Source: a bacterium
GTDB lineage: Bacteria; SAR324; XYD2-FULL-50-16
DNA length: 64,000 bases
Assembly (NCBI GenBank): GCA_024275165.1
Contig: JAJRZQ010000038.1
Location: 1 to 64,000 of the forward strand
Direction of reading: 5' to 3'
Shown: one piece after another, positions 54,824 to 62,715 of the stretch
How positions within the stretch are numbered: the first letter of the stretch is position 1
Layout of the letters: each line of letters opens with the position of its first letter
Notes under the pieces: generated by a model
Database searches by the model: none
What the model saw: the letters and a program-made list of their open reading frames with translations, nothing else
What the model was told of the DNA's origin: nothing
Translations under genes and position numbers: made by a program

Positions 54824-56218
54824 TCACAACTCACCGATTTCAATATTCCCCGTGAGTACCTGGTTTTCCAACCGAGTGCCACGGGGAAGGTGCAATTTCC
54901 CCTGTTGGCTGACTAAAATCACATTGCCTTTGAGCTCCATTTCTCGGCCAAACCAAACATCCCCCACCACGGTGAGTAAATCCAAATCCAATAAATCGGG
55001 AATCTGCTCAAAGCGTTCTTGATAGGCCGCGTAATCCCTAAAACAATCCCCCAGCCGGATCAAAGGCAGGTTGCTGAACTGCCGCCCCGGATGCCGCACC
55101 AACACTCCATCCATGATTTCAAATAAATTCGATTGCACCAAAAGCAGGTCATCGGTCTTTTTGACCGGCAAGAACCGATTTCTCGGCACCTGAATCGCTT
55201 TGGAGTCCGCCCACCAATTGATCGCGCTGCCCAAAGCCGTTTCGAGTTGAACCACCGGAAAGCCTTGGATGGTCTTGGAGTTGGTTAAGACCTCTCTTGT
55301 TACCTTGCCTTGCTCCAGCCGTGTTTTCAGCGCCTTGAGATTGATCCAAATATTGTTGGTGTTAAAAATCTTAAATTTTAAGACGCTTTTAAATTCCTCA
55401 CGGTGCTCTTTGGGAACCTGAGCAATCTCCAACAGATTTAAGGGATTTTGCGGGGTTTGGACGAGGGTGCCTCCTTTGACATCCGCGCGGGTCTTCGGGG
55501 TGACCTCCATCAAAAAGGGGCACTTTGATTGCTCTAAATAGGCTAATATTTTTAGGTCAATCGAGGCCCCTAGGTTATCGGAATTGGCGATGAAAATCCA
55601 TTCCTTTCCCTCTTGGAGCAATTGGTCTAAAATCCCCGAGGCGGGAAAGGAATCATAAAAATCCCCATGCCCTGGAGGATAAAAACTATCCTCTCCAAAG
55701 CGGGCCTTGGCCATGGGCATAAAGCTGTCTCTGCGCAGGCGAGGGAGCCAGTTTTGCTTAAAGGTGTGAATTTGTAGATCCCCCGCGTATTTTTGGATGA
55801 TTTTTTTGGTATCTTGTTCCGTGTTTTGGCTGTTCATTAATACCAAAGGAACCCGAGCCTGATATTTTTCGTTGAGTACCTTAATTTGGGTTACCGCCAG
55901 GTCCATAAACGAGGCGCCATCGCGCACCTCAATCGCCGACTTGGGGCCCACGCAACCCATGCTGGTTCCCAAGCCCCCATTGAGCCTGCAAACGGCCAGT
56001 TTTTTCAACAGTCCTTGCGCCTGGAGGCTGGAGGGCTCATTGAGGTTTGGATAGTCTAAAATCCGCTGTTCTTCAGGCGGTTGGATTTCATTCCAGAGCA
56101 GAGGTTGCTCTTTTTGCTTTAAAAAACGGCTGTAGAGGTCGCGATAGAGTTGAATATCGTTTTGCCTTACCTGCTGTGCCACTAAAAACTGCTCGATCTG
56201 TTTAAAGTCAGCTGTCAT
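54824..56218 (-). CDS. UTP-glucose-1-phosphate uridylyltransferase, eukaryote-like UDPGP family
   Basis: 464 residues of the UDPGP family that is common in eukaryotes and sporadic in bacteria, unlike GalU. The nucleotide loop LNGGLGTSMG, then GPKSAIEVRDG, PLVLMNSQNTEQDT, PGHGDFYDSF and IANSDNLGA are diagnostic. A C-terminal left-handed beta-helix-like region (VVGDVWFGREMELKGNVIL) is present. It makes UDP-glucose, or UDP-N-acetylhexosamine in some relatives. It lies 3 bp after the CHAT/TPR gene and has an AAAGGTAGG ribosome site inside that gene's end, so the two are co-transcribed. Confidence 0.9.
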   Translation of the reverse strand: MTADFKQIEQFLVAQQVRQNDIQLYRDLYSRFLKQKEQPLLWNEIQPPEEQRILDYPNLNEPSSLQAQGLLKKLAVCRLNGGLGTSMGCVGPKSAIEVRDGASFMDLAVTQIKVLNEKYQARVPLVLMNSQNTEQDTKKIIQKYAGDLQIHTFKQNWLPRLRRDSFMPMAKARFGEDSFYPPGHGDFYDSFPASGILDQLLQEGKEWIFIANSDNLGASIDLKILAYLEQSKCPFLMEVTPKTRADVKGGTLVQTPQNPLNLLEIAQVPKEHREEFKSVLKFKIFNTNNIWINLKALKTRLEQGKVTREVLTNSKTIQGFPVVQLETALGSAINWWADSKAIQVPRNRFLPVKKTDDLLLVQSNLFEIMDGVLVRHPGRQFSNLPLIRLGDCFRDYAAYQERFEQIPDLLDLDLLTVVGDVWFGREMELKGNVILVSQQGKLHLPRGTRLENQVLTGNIEIGEL

Positions 56219-56221
56219 ACC

Positions 56222-59200
56222 CTACCTTTTAAATCCCTGTGCGAGTTTATAATATTCCGTTGATTTCAATTGATTGTCGATCTTAAAAAAGAGCCCGCCC
56301 AACTTGTGCGCGATCTGGCTCGCGGCCCCTGATTGCTTGCGTTTTTGTTGGTAATGAAAAAGCCATTCCAAATGGGTCACCGCGGCTTTTAAATTTCCTT
56401 CTTGTTCTCCAATTTCTGCCAAATCTTGATGAATTTCAGAAGCTTCATCCAGTAAGCCTGCCTCCTCCAATAAGGTCGCGGCGCGGTCGGTATACCGCAA
56501 AAAGGCTTCAATATTGTTTTCTTGTTTATAAATCGACGCCAGCGCCACATAGCTTTTTCCCCATAAGGCGGGGGAAACCTCTGCCGAAGGTTTGAACAAA
56601 AAATGTTGCAAGCTGGTCAAGGCGGCCTGGTATTCCCCTGCGTAAAAAAGCAGGTGCCCGTCAATCAACCACAGATGGCTCAATTGCCGTTCACTGAGTA
56701 AGGCCGGGTCGAACTCATGCCCCTCAATCAAGCGTTTCAGCTTATCGAATTCACCGAGTTCCAAAAAGAGCAGGGCAATGGCGATCAGATTTTTATAACG
56801 GCTCTCATAATGGCTGATATCGGCGGAGAGTTGCAAGGCACTGGTTAAACAGGCTACCGCTCGTTCTGGTTGCCGCCTTTGGGTGTACAGGTTGGCCAGC
56901 TTGGTGAGAATTTCCGCCACCATGGGCCAGTTGCGGTTTTTTTGCGCTTCTTCCAAAAACCATTCCAGAAGCTCGACCGCATTATAACTTTGTGGCAAAT
57001 GCTCTAGAATATTTAAGGCGGAGAGGAGGGATTTTTCCTTTAAGGCTTCATCCTCGCTCAAAAAGGACAGCTCCAAGGCGGTAATCACATGTTGGCTGAT
57101 CAGGTTGGGGCGGTTGGCGCATTTGCGGCTCAGCTTTCTGGCATATTGCAGGTTGCGTTGAATCGCAGCCTCTAAAAGCCCCAGGGTAGCCAGTTCACTT
57201 AAAGCGTATTGGGAGCCGGCGCGGAGAAAGTCGGTTTCTGTTTGGTTTGCTTCTAAGAGTTGAACCAAGTTTTTTAACAGAACCTGCCCTTGGTGCTTGA
57301 GCATATCTGGAGGTAGAAAATCTTGCCGCTTGATCTGCACCCATAAATGACTGGGCAGCCAGTATCTCTTTTTTTCCAAGTCGCATTCAATGACACTTAA
57401 ATCCAGCAATCCTTGCAGGGTCGGGTTTAGCTTTTCGGCCCCCACCAAGCTGCAAAGCGCCTTGTCGCTCAAGCGCACCCGCATGAGGTAGAGGGTTAAA
57501 AAGACCTCTTTGGCCCGATGACTCAGCGTTTTTAGGAGTTGGGCAAAGGCGTGCATGTATAGCTCTGCCGCGTCGAGTTCGGGGTTGCCCGCCGCCTCGA
57601 TCAGTTCTTCATCCTTGAGCCCCACGATGAGCCGCAACAGGGGCAACAGCCTCATCTGGGGGGGGACTCCGTCGGCCAGGAACTCCTCCCATTGGGGGGG
57701 GAAGTCTTCTTCTAAGGATTCTTGGATCTCGCTTAAGCTGATGGTGCCTGTATCGAGGGTCAGAGTCGGTTGCTCGGTCACAAAGCTCGAATGGCTTAAG
57801 AGGATGACCTGCCAACCTTGCTTTTGCTTTTTTTCCAACCAGAGTTCAAAGATGGGGTCTATTTTTTCCGGAGGATAATAGACGCTTAAGTAATGCAAGC
57901 CTTCATCGTCCCCCTCTTGGAGGGGGATTAAGCTTTCATCGAAATAATCCAAAACCCGCTCGGTTTCAAAGAGGCTGTTGAATTTTCCGGCAAAGTGCCC
58001 GGTTGTCAGATTTTTGGTCTGCCCTTGGTGGTAGCCCCAGCGTTGGTAATAGAGCAATTTCCAAGAGAAGTTTTGCCGCGCTTGGATGCGGCGGAAAAAC
58101 TCCAGCAGGTACTCCTCTTGACTTTGACCTTCTAAAGAGCGGAGCCAGAGGATCTTGTTTTGGGGTGCCGTAAGCAGGTGGCGATAGAGCTGCCTTAAAA
58201 TCTCTGGATTACCCGCAAAGGGCCGCTCTGCCAAAAGAGCGCCGTTAACGGCGGGTTGATGCTCACCATAAGAGGTAAAGGGAGCAAAGAAAAAGGGCCG
58301 CAAGGGCTCAGGCTCAGTTTCCAACAAGGCTTCATGGACATAAAAGCGCATAAAGGCCCAATCCCAACTGAGGGGCAAGGTAGAATAAAGCTGGTTTAAG
58401 GCATGGCGGTGGGCTTTTAGGAGGGAGTCTTCCCTCAAGACGCTCAAAACCCATTCCCGGAAGTAGGTTTGGGTACGGCTCCGTTCGAGTCGCCCCTGTT
58501 GGGCCAAGATGAGGGGAACGCCGAAGTCTTGATAGGGCTCAATCCCCCCGGAGGGGGATAAAAAACCAGAGCAATTGAGCAGTAAAACCCGCAACCCCCG
58601 TGCCGCCGCGCGCATAAAGGCTTCTTTCAAACTTAGAGGGGGGGGCTCTGGTTGGGGCTCTTCTTCATAAAGCAACCAGCTCCCGGCCTCGTCGTAACCG
58701 GAAAAGAAAAACAGATCGGGTTCTTTTTGCAATGCCTTGAGGATCGCTTGCCGACTCGCCTGCCCATTGACTTGAAAATGGAGGTGACCGCTCAACTCCA
58801 AGCCTAGAGGCAAGGATTCCATGCTGGTAATGAAGCGGTTGCCGTAATGGGGCGAGGTTTCGGGGGCTTCACCTATGGGGGAGTAGGAAAACAGAGCGGT
58901 TTCTAAACGAGCGTTGATTTTGCGAGACTTTTCAAATTGAGGGGGAAGCTTGCCCGCAAAGGTGCGGGTGACCCCAATGGTTAAAGCCAAAAAACTGGCT
59001 CCATCGTGAATCAATTCTAAGGGGAGCTGTTTCGCCTCCCCGTGCAGCTTAAAGATTAAGCTTTTGGCTTTGGCCAAATGGGGCCGCAGCCTAAGAGGAA
59101 TCAAAGCGTGAAATAAGGCCTCTCCATAAGCTTTGAGAAGTTCCATTGCCTCGGCCCGTTCACTCCTTGAGGAACGATGCAGTAGGGCCACCGAATTGCG

Positions 59201-59323
59201 CAAAAGGCCAAAGGCCTCCAAGGCCGCTTGCTCCAATTTGGGGTGCGGAGGGTGATAAGGAAGTTCTAGATTATACTTGGGGATACGCAGCAGCATCCCA
59301 TCGAGTTCAATCAGCAGCGGCAT
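56222..59323 (-). CDS. CHAT-domain protein with degenerate active site, STAND-like and TPR regions
   Basis: 1033 residues. Residues about 90-345 are a CHAT (caspase-like) domain: KQLPLELIHDGASFLALTIG, then LFFFSGYDEAGSW, VLLLNCSGF and FGVPLILAQQGRLERSRTQ. The usual HFxGHG is FFFSGYD, so the catalytic His is replaced by Tyr 210; Cys 251 remains. Residues about 345-600 follow the STAND plan (RPFAGNPEILRQLYRHLL), but the P-loop is lost (LWLRSLEGQSQEE). A winged-helix-like region (about 600-680) and TPR-like repeats to the end follow. The gene overlaps selB by 17 bp and precedes a UDP-glucose gene by 3 bp. Likely a non-catalytic scaffold; function unknown. Confidence 0.75.
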   Translation of the reverse strand: MPLLIELDGMLLRIPKYNLELPYHPPHPKLEQAALEAFGLLRNSVALLHRSSRSERAEAMELLKAYGEALFHALIPLRLRPHLAKAKSLIFKLHGEAKQLPLELIHDGASFLALTIGVTRTFAGKLPPQFEKSRKINARLETALFSYSPIGEAPETSPHYGNRFITSMESLPLGLELSGHLHFQVNGQASRQAILKALQKEPDLFFFSGYDEAGSWLLYEEEPQPEPPPLSLKEAFMRAAARGLRVLLLNCSGFLSPSGGIEPYQDFGVPLILAQQGRLERSRTQTYFREWVLSVLREDSLLKAHRHALNQLYSTLPLSWDWAFMRFYVHEALLETEPEPLRPFFFAPFTSYGEHQPAVNGALLAERPFAGNPEILRQLYRHLLTAPQNKILWLRSLEGQSQEEYLLEFFRRIQARQNFSWKLLYYQRWGYHQGQTKNLTTGHFAGKFNSLFETERVLDYFDESLIPLQEGDDEGLHYLSVYYPPEKIDPIFELWLEKKQKQGWQVILLSHSSFVTEQPTLTLDTGTISLSEIQESLEEDFPPQWEEFLADGVPPQMRLLPLLRLIVGLKDEELIEAAGNPELDAAELYMHAFAQLLKTLSHRAKEVFLTLYLMRVRLSDKALCSLVGAEKLNPTLQGLLDLSVIECDLEKKRYWLPSHLWVQIKRQDFLPPDMLKHQGQVLLKNLVQLLEANQTETDFLRAGSQYALSELATLGLLEAAIQRNLQYARKLSRKCANRPNLISQHVITALELSFLSEDEALKEKSLLSALNILEHLPQSYNAVELLEWFLEEAQKNRNWPMVAEILTKLANLYTQRRQPERAVACLTSALQLSADISHYESRYKNLIAIALLFLELGEFDKLKRLIEGHEFDPALLSERQLSHLWLIDGHLLFYAGEYQAALTSLQHFLFKPSAEVSPALWGKSYVALASIYKQENNIEAFLRYTDRAATLLEEAGLLDEASEIHQDLAEIGEQEGNLKAAVTHLEWLFHYQQKRKQSGAASQIAHKLGGLFFKIDNQLKSTEYYKLAQGFKR

Positions 59324-61226
59324 TGTTTTTTTCTGATTCCCTCGCCAGAATGCGGTGATCTCCTAAGCGGATGGTGCGTTTTTCCCGGTCGAAATACTCT
59401 AAGATCAGTACGGCCTCTTTGCGAGACAAATCTAGAAGCTTTTTAAACCCGATCACCGTAATTTGCGGTTCTTTTGATAAATAAGTTTTTAATTCTTGCC
59501 AGGCCTTGTCTGTGGCAGCAGTACTTAAAAATTGATCTGTCGCCAGTTCGACCCACCAGCCACGCGTCTTCCCCAGGGCCAGCAACCTCGTTACGCCGCT
59601 CAGGCCTATTGTCAGCCCCCTTTGCAAAGTCGTTGGGCTTTGGGGCTTCATCCCCCCCTGTTTCAGTTTTAGGAGCAAGCTTTGTTTCAGCAAGACTTGT
59701 TCTGGGCTAAGGGCACCTGTAACGCCTTGAAGATGATAGAATTGAGCCGTTTTGACTAGGATTTTTTCTTTCTCCAGCCAGCTTAAAAAAAGCAAGGACT
59801 CGGCAGCGGAAAACAGCCGCTTGAGCTTTCCCGTAAAGTATTCCCCTGTGGCTCCGATTTCTTCAGGCTGTGCTTGATGAAACTGTTGCAATAGCTGGGT
59901 GATGTAGGGAATGATTCGTTGGAGGTGCTCTGGATGTCGCCAACTTGTTTTGAAGCGGAGGAGTTTGCCTTGACTCGCGAGGTGTTGCAAGGGCTTGGCC
60001 GCTTTTTTTGGGGTTAGGCCCGTTAAGGGAAAAAGGTCTTTTTCTTCTATTCCCTTTAAGCCGTCAAATAGGGCAATAGCTTCAATGCGTTCTTCCGCGC
60101 TGCCTTGTTGAAGCTTATGCAGGGCCTCGTTCCTTTTGGCGCCCGAGATGCGCGTGAGGGGCTTTTTGGCTAAGACGACGATTGCCCCGGCAAGGGTTTC
60201 TTTGGGGTTAAAGGCGCGGAGGATTAAGCGGTCACCCCAGGCAAAGGCTAAGGTTTTTTCCAAGCGAAGGCGGAAAAATCCAGGCTCCAAAAGATTAAAG
60301 TCATAACCCTTGGGGGCGATTAAGCGGGCTGGGCTCTCTTGAGCGTGACTAAAGAGGGTTAAGCTCGCTTGGTCTTTGGGGCGAAAACGGGTTTGCGGCA
60401 ACCATTCCAGCCAGATGTCGAGGTCTCTGCTTTCGCTTAAGCTGTTCGGGCTGGCTAGCTGGCAGCCTCTAGGGGTGTTGGAAGGAGCTCGCGATAGATT
60501 GATGGCGGCGCGCATTCCCGTAACGACTTGCTCAACGGCTTGGTTGCGGCTTTGCAACCCTCGTAATTTGACCTGTTTTTGCCCCGGATATAGCACGCAG
60601 GGGCTAGAGGTGGTTAAGGCGCCACGGCAGACGGTGCCCGTCACCACCTTGCCAAAGCCCTTGATTAAAAAACCGCGGTCTATTGGGAGGCGAAAGGGCA
60701 GGCCCTGGGTTTGGGTTTGATGGAGAGGCGCCAAGCGCGTGATCGCTTTTTTTAAATCCTTTAGGCCTTCTCCTGTTTTGGCGGAGCAAACAATCAGGGG
60801 GGCCTGGGCTAAAAAACTCCCCTCTACAAGGTCTAAAACCTCTTCTTTGGTAACCTGCAAGCTCTCCGCGTCGGCTAAGTCGCAACGGGTTAAGGCGATG
60901 ATTCCCTGGGGAACTCCTAAAAGTCGCGCGATTTGAAAGTGTTCTTTGGTTTGGGGCATCACCCCTTCATCCGCCGCGACCACCAAAATCACTCCGGTCA
61001 GCCCCCCTATGCCGGCAAGCATATTATGAATCAGGTCTTCATGGCCGGGAACATCAATGATAGAGACCTCTTTCCCCTCATAACTCAAGGAGGCGAAACC
61101 GAGGTCCAAGGTAATGCCTCGCTTTTTTTCCTCTGCCCAGCGGTCTGGGTCTTGCCCGGTCAAGGCCTGCACCAAGCTGGATTTGCCATGGTCGATATGG
61201 CCTAAGGTTGAAAGACAGACTTCCAT
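59307..61226 (-). CDS. selB: SelB, selenocysteine-specific elongation factor
   Basis: 639 residues from the ATG at 61226; an upstream TTG at 61307 adds 27 residues that do not look like the family. SelB brings selenocysteyl-tRNA to UGA codons that have a SECIS element. G motifs: GHIDHGKSS, the switch RGITLDLGF, DVPGHE and TRCD. Domains II and III follow, and the C-terminal half consists of winged-helix repeats (for example ITVIGFKKLLDLSRKEAVLIL) that bind SECIS RNA. No selA, selC, selD or selenoprotein gene was recognised nearby. It overlaps the CHAT gene by 17 bp. Confidence 0.93.
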   Translation of the reverse strand: MEVCLSTLGHIDHGKSSLVQALTGQDPDRWAEEKKRGITLDLGFASLSYEGKEVSIIDVPGHEDLIHNMLAGIGGLTGVILVVAADEGVMPQTKEHFQIARLLGVPQGIIALTRCDLADAESLQVTKEEVLDLVEGSFLAQAPLIVCSAKTGEGLKDLKKAITRLAPLHQTQTQGLPFRLPIDRGFLIKGFGKVVTGTVCRGALTTSSPCVLYPGQKQVKLRGLQSRNQAVEQVVTGMRAAINLSRAPSNTPRGCQLASPNSLSESRDLDIWLEWLPQTRFRPKDQASLTLFSHAQESPARLIAPKGYDFNLLEPGFFRLRLEKTLAFAWGDRLILRAFNPKETLAGAIVVLAKKPLTRISGAKRNEALHKLQQGSAEERIEAIALFDGLKGIEEKDLFPLTGLTPKKAAKPLQHLASQGKLLRFKTSWRHPEHLQRIIPYITQLLQQFHQAQPEEIGATGEYFTGKLKRLFSAAESLLFLSWLEKEKILVKTAQFYHLQGVTGALSPEQVLLKQSLLLKLKQGGMKPQSPTTLQRGLTIGLSGVTRLLALGKTRGWWVELATDQFLSTAATDKAWQELKTYLSKEPQITVIGFKKLLDLSRKEAVLILEYFDREKRTIRLGDHRILARESEKNNAAAD

Positions 61227-61407
61227 GGAACGCGAGAGCGGAAAAAGGGTTGCTGGAGGAAAGATAACCGAGGGGCCCAAGAATGGCCAGAGCGGGGAAG
61301 GAGGCAAGGCGGGCTACAGACTGCTCCTTTTGCTTTCGCAGAGTTCGCTTGAAGGCGGATCGCCTTGAGGATGCTCTGCCCGCATATAAACCCAATGCCT
61401 TCGCAGG

Positions 61408-61470: not shown

Positions 61471-62715
61471 TTAATAACTAAAGCCGATGCCTAAATGAAC
61501 CTGTTCGCTTTGCATCTCATACTTTAAACTGGAATAAGCCCCGGTGGGCATGGAAAACTGCACCCCCAAACTGGCGTCATTGTCGAGCAGCGGTTTCTCG
61601 TAGTAATTTTGATAGGAATCAACAAAGACTTTCAACTCTTCGGTGATCATGTACTTCGCTCCTAGGCCAATTCGCTGGTTGTCAATATAGGCATTGGCCA
61701 TGAGGCCTAAGTTTTCCAAACGGCCTGTCACCGCCAAAAAGAGGCTGTTTTTGTTGCGCCCGTCATTTTTTTTATCCAAGGTATCATTTCCGGTCACAAA
61801 ATCTAAGTTTTCCTTATTCCAGGTGATGCGCTTGCGCCCTCCAAAACTGACTAAGACCTCTTGCGCGTCAACCAGCATCAACTTGGCGTAGAGATAACTC
61901 GAATGGGATTTCGCCTCGATATTCGTATTGACCTGATAGCTGAATTGTAAATTTTCCAAAGCGCGCCAATCCATAAACAAACTTTTGGCAGGCACCTTGA
62001 CATCGGTTAGATTCTTCAGCCAAATCTGGAGCAGCATGGAAATCGGGGTGGGGCTCATCAAGGCGGTGGGGTTCCAATCAATCCAAGAATTGTTTTGGTC
62101 ATCGCGAAAGCTCCGGGGGATGAACTCATCGGCAAATTGGGCGACCTGCATGGTCTGGGGTCGCATGGATTGGCCTAAAACCTTGTATTCCCGCGTTGCT
62201 TTTTGGGGCGCTTTAGCCTGGCTATAGACTTGGGCCGTGGACTTTCTCGGTTGCTTTTTTTGTCGGGCCACTTCCATGCTTTCAACGCCTAAACTCCGGC
62301 CTTGCCGGTCATAGAGTTCACCTTTGAGGGATAAGCCTTCGCCGTAAGGTTTCAATTCAATAATCAAGGTGCGATTGCTGCCGTTGCGCTGGTTACAGGC
62401 CCGCATTTTTACGGGGTCTTGTTTTAGTTCCTGGGCGCTCAAATGATTTTTGCGCAAAATTTCCGCCGTAATCACGGGGTCGGCGACTTGAAAGGAGCGT
62501 AACATCTCCTTGGCCATATCCTTTTTGAGTTGGACGAGGTTAAAGCCCGTCTTCAACTGGCTGCGCCCCTGGGTTTCAAAAATCAACGCCAATTTGACGG
62601 TTCCTTGGGCCTCTGTTCGCGCCGCTATTTTGCGGCGAAAAGCGGAAAAATCTTCCGCCCAAGCCGTGGCGGTGAAAAGAAGAGCGCAACCAAGACTGAT
62701 GAGGAGTTTTTTCAT
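61471..62715 (-). CDS. Outer-membrane beta-barrel protein, unknown
   Basis: 414 residues with a signal peptide (LLISLGCALLFTATAWAED). The first 170 mature residues form a periplasmic domain with no recognised motif (a CNQRNGSNRTLIIELK segment). The C-terminal half shows alternating strands (FSYQVNTNIEAKSHSSYLYAK, QVHLGIGFSY) and ends in FSY, the aromatic C-terminal signal for outer-membrane insertion. The pattern suggests a small barrel. A possible promoter lies in 62716-62911. It is not obviously linked to nadC, which is 196 bp upstream. Confidence 0.72.
   Translation of the reverse strand: MKKLLISLGCALLFTATAWAEDFSAFRRKIAARTEAQGTVKLALIFETQGRSQLKTGFNLVQLKKDMAKEMLRSFQVADPVITAEILRKNHLSAQELKQDPVKMRACNQRNGSNRTLIIELKPYGEGLSLKGELYDRQGRSLGVESMEVARQKKQPRKSTAQVYSQAKAPQKATREYKVLGQSMRPQTMQVAQFADEFIPRSFRDDQNNSWIDWNPTALMSPTPISMLLQIWLKNLTDVKVPAKSLFMDWRALENLQFSYQVNTNIEAKSHSSYLYAKLMLVDAQEVLVSFGGRKRITWNKENLDFVTGNDTLDKKNDGRNKNSLFLAVTGRLENLGLMANAYIDNQRIGLGAKYMITEELKVFVDSYQNYYEKPLLDNDASLGVQFSMPTGAYSSLKYEMQSEQVHLGIGFSY

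Follow-up and report, generated by a model that had tools for sequence, protein, structure and literature searches.

What does a protein with the build of a CHAT-STAND-TPR receptor do when neither its protease site nor its nucleotide site is recognizable, and why does its gene lie between selB and a sugar-nucleotide gene? The question is raised by a gene in the window, by which we mean the whole 64,000-nucleotide stretch analyzed here, taken from a SAR324 genome assembly of 2.7 Mb that is 98% complete. Positions 56222-59323 (-) form one uninterrupted reading frame of 1033 codons, which with its immediate neighbors was annotated as follows.

54824-56218, minus strand: UTP-glucose-1-phosphate uridylyltransferase family gene, UDPGP (PF01704), beginning 3 nt past the stop of the pseudo-CHAT gene
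56222-59323, minus strand: pseudo-CHAT / degenerate STAND / TPR gene, 1033 amino acids, orthologues known
59307-61307, minus strand: selB, directly upstream, overlapping the start of the pseudo-CHAT gene by 17 nt

An earlier note on this DNA, made from the sequence alone, had placed the gene between selB and a sugar-nucleotide gene; this held, the latter being a PF01704 UDPGP gene. Given the overlap on one side and the short gap on the other, the pseudo-CHAT gene apparently belongs to one transcription unit. Its neighbors are nadC, a secreted protein, selB, UDPGP and a metal P-type ATPase. The protein encoded at 61471-62715 (-) has a signal-peptide-like N-terminus, is kept upstream of selB in eight genomes of the host's family (f1) and matched no Pfam or NCBIfam family.

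The N-terminal part of the protein was divided as follows, with the two active-site columns compared across f1 and its sister family, f4.

59168-59323, minus strand: conserved N-terminal extension, residues 1-52
58319-59167, minus strand: CHAT (caspase-like) domain, residues about 53-335, from alignments, an AlphaFold2 model and Foldseek
58694-58696, minus strand: Tyr210, at the catalytic His column, Y/F/H in f1 and F/Y/W in f4
58568-58570, minus strand: Ser252, at the catalytic Cys column, Ser in 19/19 f1 and f4 sequences

The Pfam CHAT family (PF12770) scored below threshold (E=0.012, 15.5 bits, cut-off 24). An hhalign profile-profile comparison against ten canonical CHAT domains gave a probability of 96.7 and E=3e-10, and the family profile (HMMER) picked up the solved SAVED-CHAT structure 8tl0 with E=2e-7. 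The AlphaFold2 model of the CHAT domain, for which the input alignment contained four catalytic CHATs, had a pLDDT of 90.2 and a pTM of 0.91; when it was searched against the PDB using Foldseek, Csx29/TPR-CHAT (Craspase) was the best match, and separase, SAVED-CHAT and gingipain were also matched. The CHAT identity proposed earlier was thus borne out by the profile-profile comparison, the 8tl0 match and the structure prediction that had been suggested as a check, and the predicted model confirmed the N-terminal domain as a caspase-like alpha/beta CHAT fold. Two other names offered by searches with the whole protein, MzaA from PADLOC (E=0.017) and FimS from NCBIfam, were weak, partial matches and were disregarded.

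The GHG-motif His aligned with Tyr210 in FFFSGYD by MAFFT, by hhalign and by HMMER to 8tl0, so that Tyr does stand at the catalytic His position, and no other His aligned in the active site. Conservation of this Tyr was checked and took the form listed above for column 210, with His in f1 confined to genomes G007 and G009. The statement in the earlier note that Cys251 is retained proved wrong. With LLLNC-S-G set against VVLSA-C-E, Cys251 pairs with the Ala and Ser252 with the catalytic Cys, a register resting on the same three alignments, which rule out Cys251 as a retained nucleophile; it is one residue out of register, in a column that is variable (C/T/S in f1, D in f4). Ser occupies column 252 in ten f1 and nine f4 sequences; the divergent f2 member has Trp there. 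Because Tyr210 and Ser252 occupy the dyad columns, the CHAT dyad is lost on both sides, and judged from sequence neither hallmark of an active CHAT protease, the His of the GHG motif or the Cys after the fourth strand in an SAC motif, is present.

In the sequences from G009 (L025) and G007 (L026) the motif reads SGHE, with His at the catalytic column and Ser still at the Cys column. These sequences bear on the idea that the protein is an active protease, with Ser252 as nucleophile and a migrated base, either His305 or, in these two genomes, His210. Migrated residues are known in pseudoenzymes, where activity can persist (PMC10211241), and Ser252 and His305 are invariant across f1 and f4. By the topology of the model, however, His305 would sit early in helix 301-315, across the sheet from the active site; f4 proteins carry Phe, Tyr or Trp at the His column, and we consider such a relocated active site very improbable.

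The remainder of the protein was divided as follows.

57644-58246, minus strand: degenerate STAND/AAA_16-like NTPase core, residues about 360-560
58115-58138, minus strand: Walker A remnant, residues 396-403, SLEGQSQE (GAPGSGKT in f4), with Gln402 at the Lys column
57866-57892, minus strand: Walker B remnant, residues 478-486, YLSVYYPPE (RLVIVDGLE in f4), with Tyr483 at the Asp column
57314-57643, minus strand: helical / winged-helix-like stretch, residues about 561-670, boundary approximate
56225-57313, minus strand: TPR array, residues about 671-1033

The full-length model (pLDDT 75.5, pTM 0.62) had the STAND-TPR protein 6mfv as its best structural match and further matched Avs3 (8dgc) and Avs5 (9jap). 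The family profile matched AfsR (8k60) over profile positions 383-979, which cover the core and the TPRs. A STAND-like core between an effector domain and a repeat sensor is therefore present, lacking the Walker A and Walker B residues: the ten f1 members and G010 (f2) have other residues in place of both the Walker A Lys and the Walker B Asp. The reported absence of GxxGxGKT was accordingly upheld, since the f4 motif aligns with SLEGQSQE and the Walker B Asp is gone as well, with the correction that the absence is a derived state, because nine f4 relatives still carry an intact GxxGxGKT and an Asp-containing Walker B. AAA_16 was found in 9/20 members, and f4 homologues match this family.

Full-length orthologues with 33-37% identity are carried by all nine other f1 genomes, so that the gene is present in 10/10 f1 genomes, in one copy each. 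G010 also has a homologue, as do nine of the ten f4 genomes (L033-L041); none was found in the tenth, G032 (80% complete). The f3 genomes yielded no pseudo-CHAT, their sole relative being a catalytic one in G027. In a single-protein scan of a contig collection no match was found, and an alignment-based search of contigs returned nine f1 orthologues (the same as in G001-G009) together with a Nitrospinia sequence, L065, which was set aside as an ordinary active CHAT of other architecture.

In the tree the pseudo-CHATs formed a single clade (support 100/98), with the G027 protein, L043, as nearest neighbor; G010 has a very divergent sequence, whose position in the tree is uncertain. L043 is a CHAT-STAND-TPR protein in which His, Cys and P-loop are intact (HFTGHG, LNSCAT and GEGGMGKT). 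Since f4 proteins combine a dead CHAT with an intact P-loop, the simplest reading of the sequences is that the protease dyad was probably lost first and the nucleotide site later, in the order that contains f1 and f2. The f4 loci L033-L041 combine a dead CHAT, a STAND core with an intact P-loop and a genome with no recognizable canonical CHAT. At one of them, L033, tgt (queuine tRNA-ribosyltransferase) lies nearby, and members of its cluster turn up at three more f4 loci.

Within f1 the pseudo-CHAT tree matches the selB tree at the well-supported forks that they share, and the gene is inherited vertically within part of the SAR324/Lambdaproteobacteria phylum. This pattern bears on whether the protein is a decaying or repurposed NLR-like defense receptor that can still detect phage and signal by proximity but no longer cuts. 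Prokaryotic conflict systems include CHAT and STAND modules (PMC10907252), the full-length model resembles the Avs proteins named above, and a catalytic relative survives in G027. Defense genes are usually patchy, whereas this one is universal, single-copy, syntenic and congruent with selB in f1; moreover, PADLOC assigned no family, cas included, to the ten neighboring proteins, in agreement with the earlier statement that no effector, nuclease or gasdermin is nearby, and gave only a weak partial match for the protein itself. A surviving receptor role is accordingly improbable, and we infer from the universality, vertical descent and neighbors of the gene that its role is probably a non-defense one.

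The order selB - pseudo-CHAT - UDPGP was found in all ten f1 genomes, so that the arrangement, whose conservation in relatives had been proposed as a check, is kept in every f1 relative; the secreted protein and nadC follow upstream in f1 wherever contigs reach and no rearrangement has occurred. In G009 (L025, 9356-11629) and G007 (L026, 11887-14181) only, an extra ORF of about 760 amino acids sits between the pseudo-CHAT gene and UDPGP; the G009 copy had no Pfam match. The description of the gene as locked in place is therefore right for f1, but the context is not general to all carriers. The f4 homologues lie at other loci, while selB is present in most f4 genomes. G010 (89% complete) keeps the pseudo-CHAT gene, gave no selB match above the level of elongation factors and has UDPGP on a different contig. 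UDPGP (PF01704) is present in f1 and G010; searches of ten f4 and three f3 genomes did not find it. Because the f4 gene is elsewhere and G010 has no recognizable selB, the link to selB reflects positional history in f1, not shared function. A dedicated factor for selenocysteine insertion or for the neighboring UDP-sugar enzyme would account for the gene adjoining both others in ten f1 genomes, in a mostly operon-like array; it is hard to reconcile with an f4 gene that lies elsewhere in genomes most of which have selB and in which no UDPGP was found, or with G010, and is very unlikely.

Canonical CHAT proteins were found in every f1 genome, at least one in each and two in the host genome (G000:C29 and G000:C16). 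A protein of this kind could restrain or activate an active CHAT elsewhere in the cell by pairing with it, as the pseudoprotease cFLIP binds procaspase-8 (PMC10211241). The canonical CHATs are not at the pseudo-CHAT locus, however, and in the f4 genomes and G010 none was found above the Pfam cut-off; a search of the same genomes with a canonical-CHAT profile, which had no positive control, was also empty. Since f4 and G010 keep the pseudo-CHAT without a recognized canonical CHAT, the gene is not tied to canonical CHATs and a cFLIP-like role is disfavored; we rate it as unlikely.

Constraint on the gene was estimated from the closest pair, G009 and G007, in which dN was 0.19, dS was 1.8-1.9 and dN/dS was about 0.1; this was the one pair in which the ratio could be estimated, and with dS near saturation it is rough. 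As dN is well below dS, purifying selection acts on the gene; its rate of evolution is roughly double that of selB and UDPGP (dN about 0.10). Among genus g4 sequences, three pairs were compared by domain, and identity was 34-39% in the STAND core and 52-55% in CHAT and TPR. Six of the nine CHAT-core positions that are invariant in f1 and f4 (Pro149, Trp216, Ser252, Gly277, Trp320 and Trp322) lie in active-site-side loops, where 1.9 were expected (p=0.003, an optimistic value, as the loop sets were taken from predicted strand topology and picked after the alignment had been seen). These data are supportive of constraint that is strongest on the active-site-side loops and the TPRs and weakest on the dead STAND core.

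The reading that we favor, and hold to be probable with real room for doubt, is that the protein, a CHAT-STAND-TPR member inactivated at both sites, has been vertically inherited and kept as a non-catalytic binding scaffold. Universal retention together with loss of both sites suggests such a scaffold with a role in normal cellular life. Binding of a partner or peptide may fall to the TPRs and, separately, to the former substrate cleft; the dead STAND core may serve as a linker, and the protein would then assemble a complex constitutively, with no ATP switch and no cleavage of a target. The partner is probably encoded elsewhere, because the neighbors differ between lineages. The earlier note had implied a pseudo-protease scaffold or a non-defense role; presence in 10/10 genomes, synteny, congruence with selB, dN/dS and the double loss support this, the non-defense part being reached indirectly. 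A further proposal, which is possible although we hold it with considerable doubt, is that an NLR-like protease receptor lost its two activities step by step and was domesticated as a housekeeping scaffold, with the CHAT cleft now reading a peptide or protein signal, and became a core component of the lineage. The order of loss can be followed in a living series, from catalytic L043 through f4, with a dead CHAT and an intact P-loop, to f1, in which both are dead. This series lets one ask what function a CHAT-STAND protein has once it no longer cuts, and whether bacterial immune-type receptors turn into housekeeping scaffolds.

Among known systems, Csx29 has an active His-Cys dyad, carries its TPRs before the CHAT domain and works with Cas7-11. 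The protein described here shares with Csx29/Craspase the combination of a CHAT fold with TPRs; it differs in that a dead CHAT domain stands ahead of the TPRs, with a STAND remnant after it, the neighbors include no cas family, and the type III-E association with Cas7-11 that marks Craspase is absent from the neighborhood. L043 of G027 has an identical domain order and adjoins the pseudo-CHAT clade in the tree, but the equivalents of its HFTGHG, LNSCAT and GEGGMGKT are all three lost in the pseudo-CHAT. PH0952 (6mfv) and AfsR (8k60) likewise have a STAND core followed by a TPR superhelix; they have no CHAT and are named as an ATPase or regulator with nucleotide binding, whereas the pseudo-CHAT is without Walker A and B. 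In the literature searched there was no direct precedent for an inactive CHAT and no description of a conserved, lineage-wide pseudo-CHAT. The closest parallel is found in the pseudo-orthocaspases of the p20/C14 branch, in which Tyr replaces His and Ser replaces Cys (PMC6426788, PMC3501461), and of which SyOC alters oxidative-stress tolerance when knocked out (PMC7889975). Both groups have the Tyr-Ser pair in common, but pseudo-orthocaspases belong to the p20/Peptidase C14 family, not CHAT, and occur mostly in Alphaproteobacteria and Cyanobacteria, and Pfam gave no C14 match in the pseudo-CHAT protein. By analogy, the pseudo-CHAT is best read as the CHAT counterpart of these Tyr-Ser pseudo-orthocaspases. 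Pseudo-caspases were already known in the p20/C14 branch; to these is added a conserved, lineage-wide pseudo-CHAT, and the shared replacement suggests that there may be a preferred route by which caspase-like folds are silenced.
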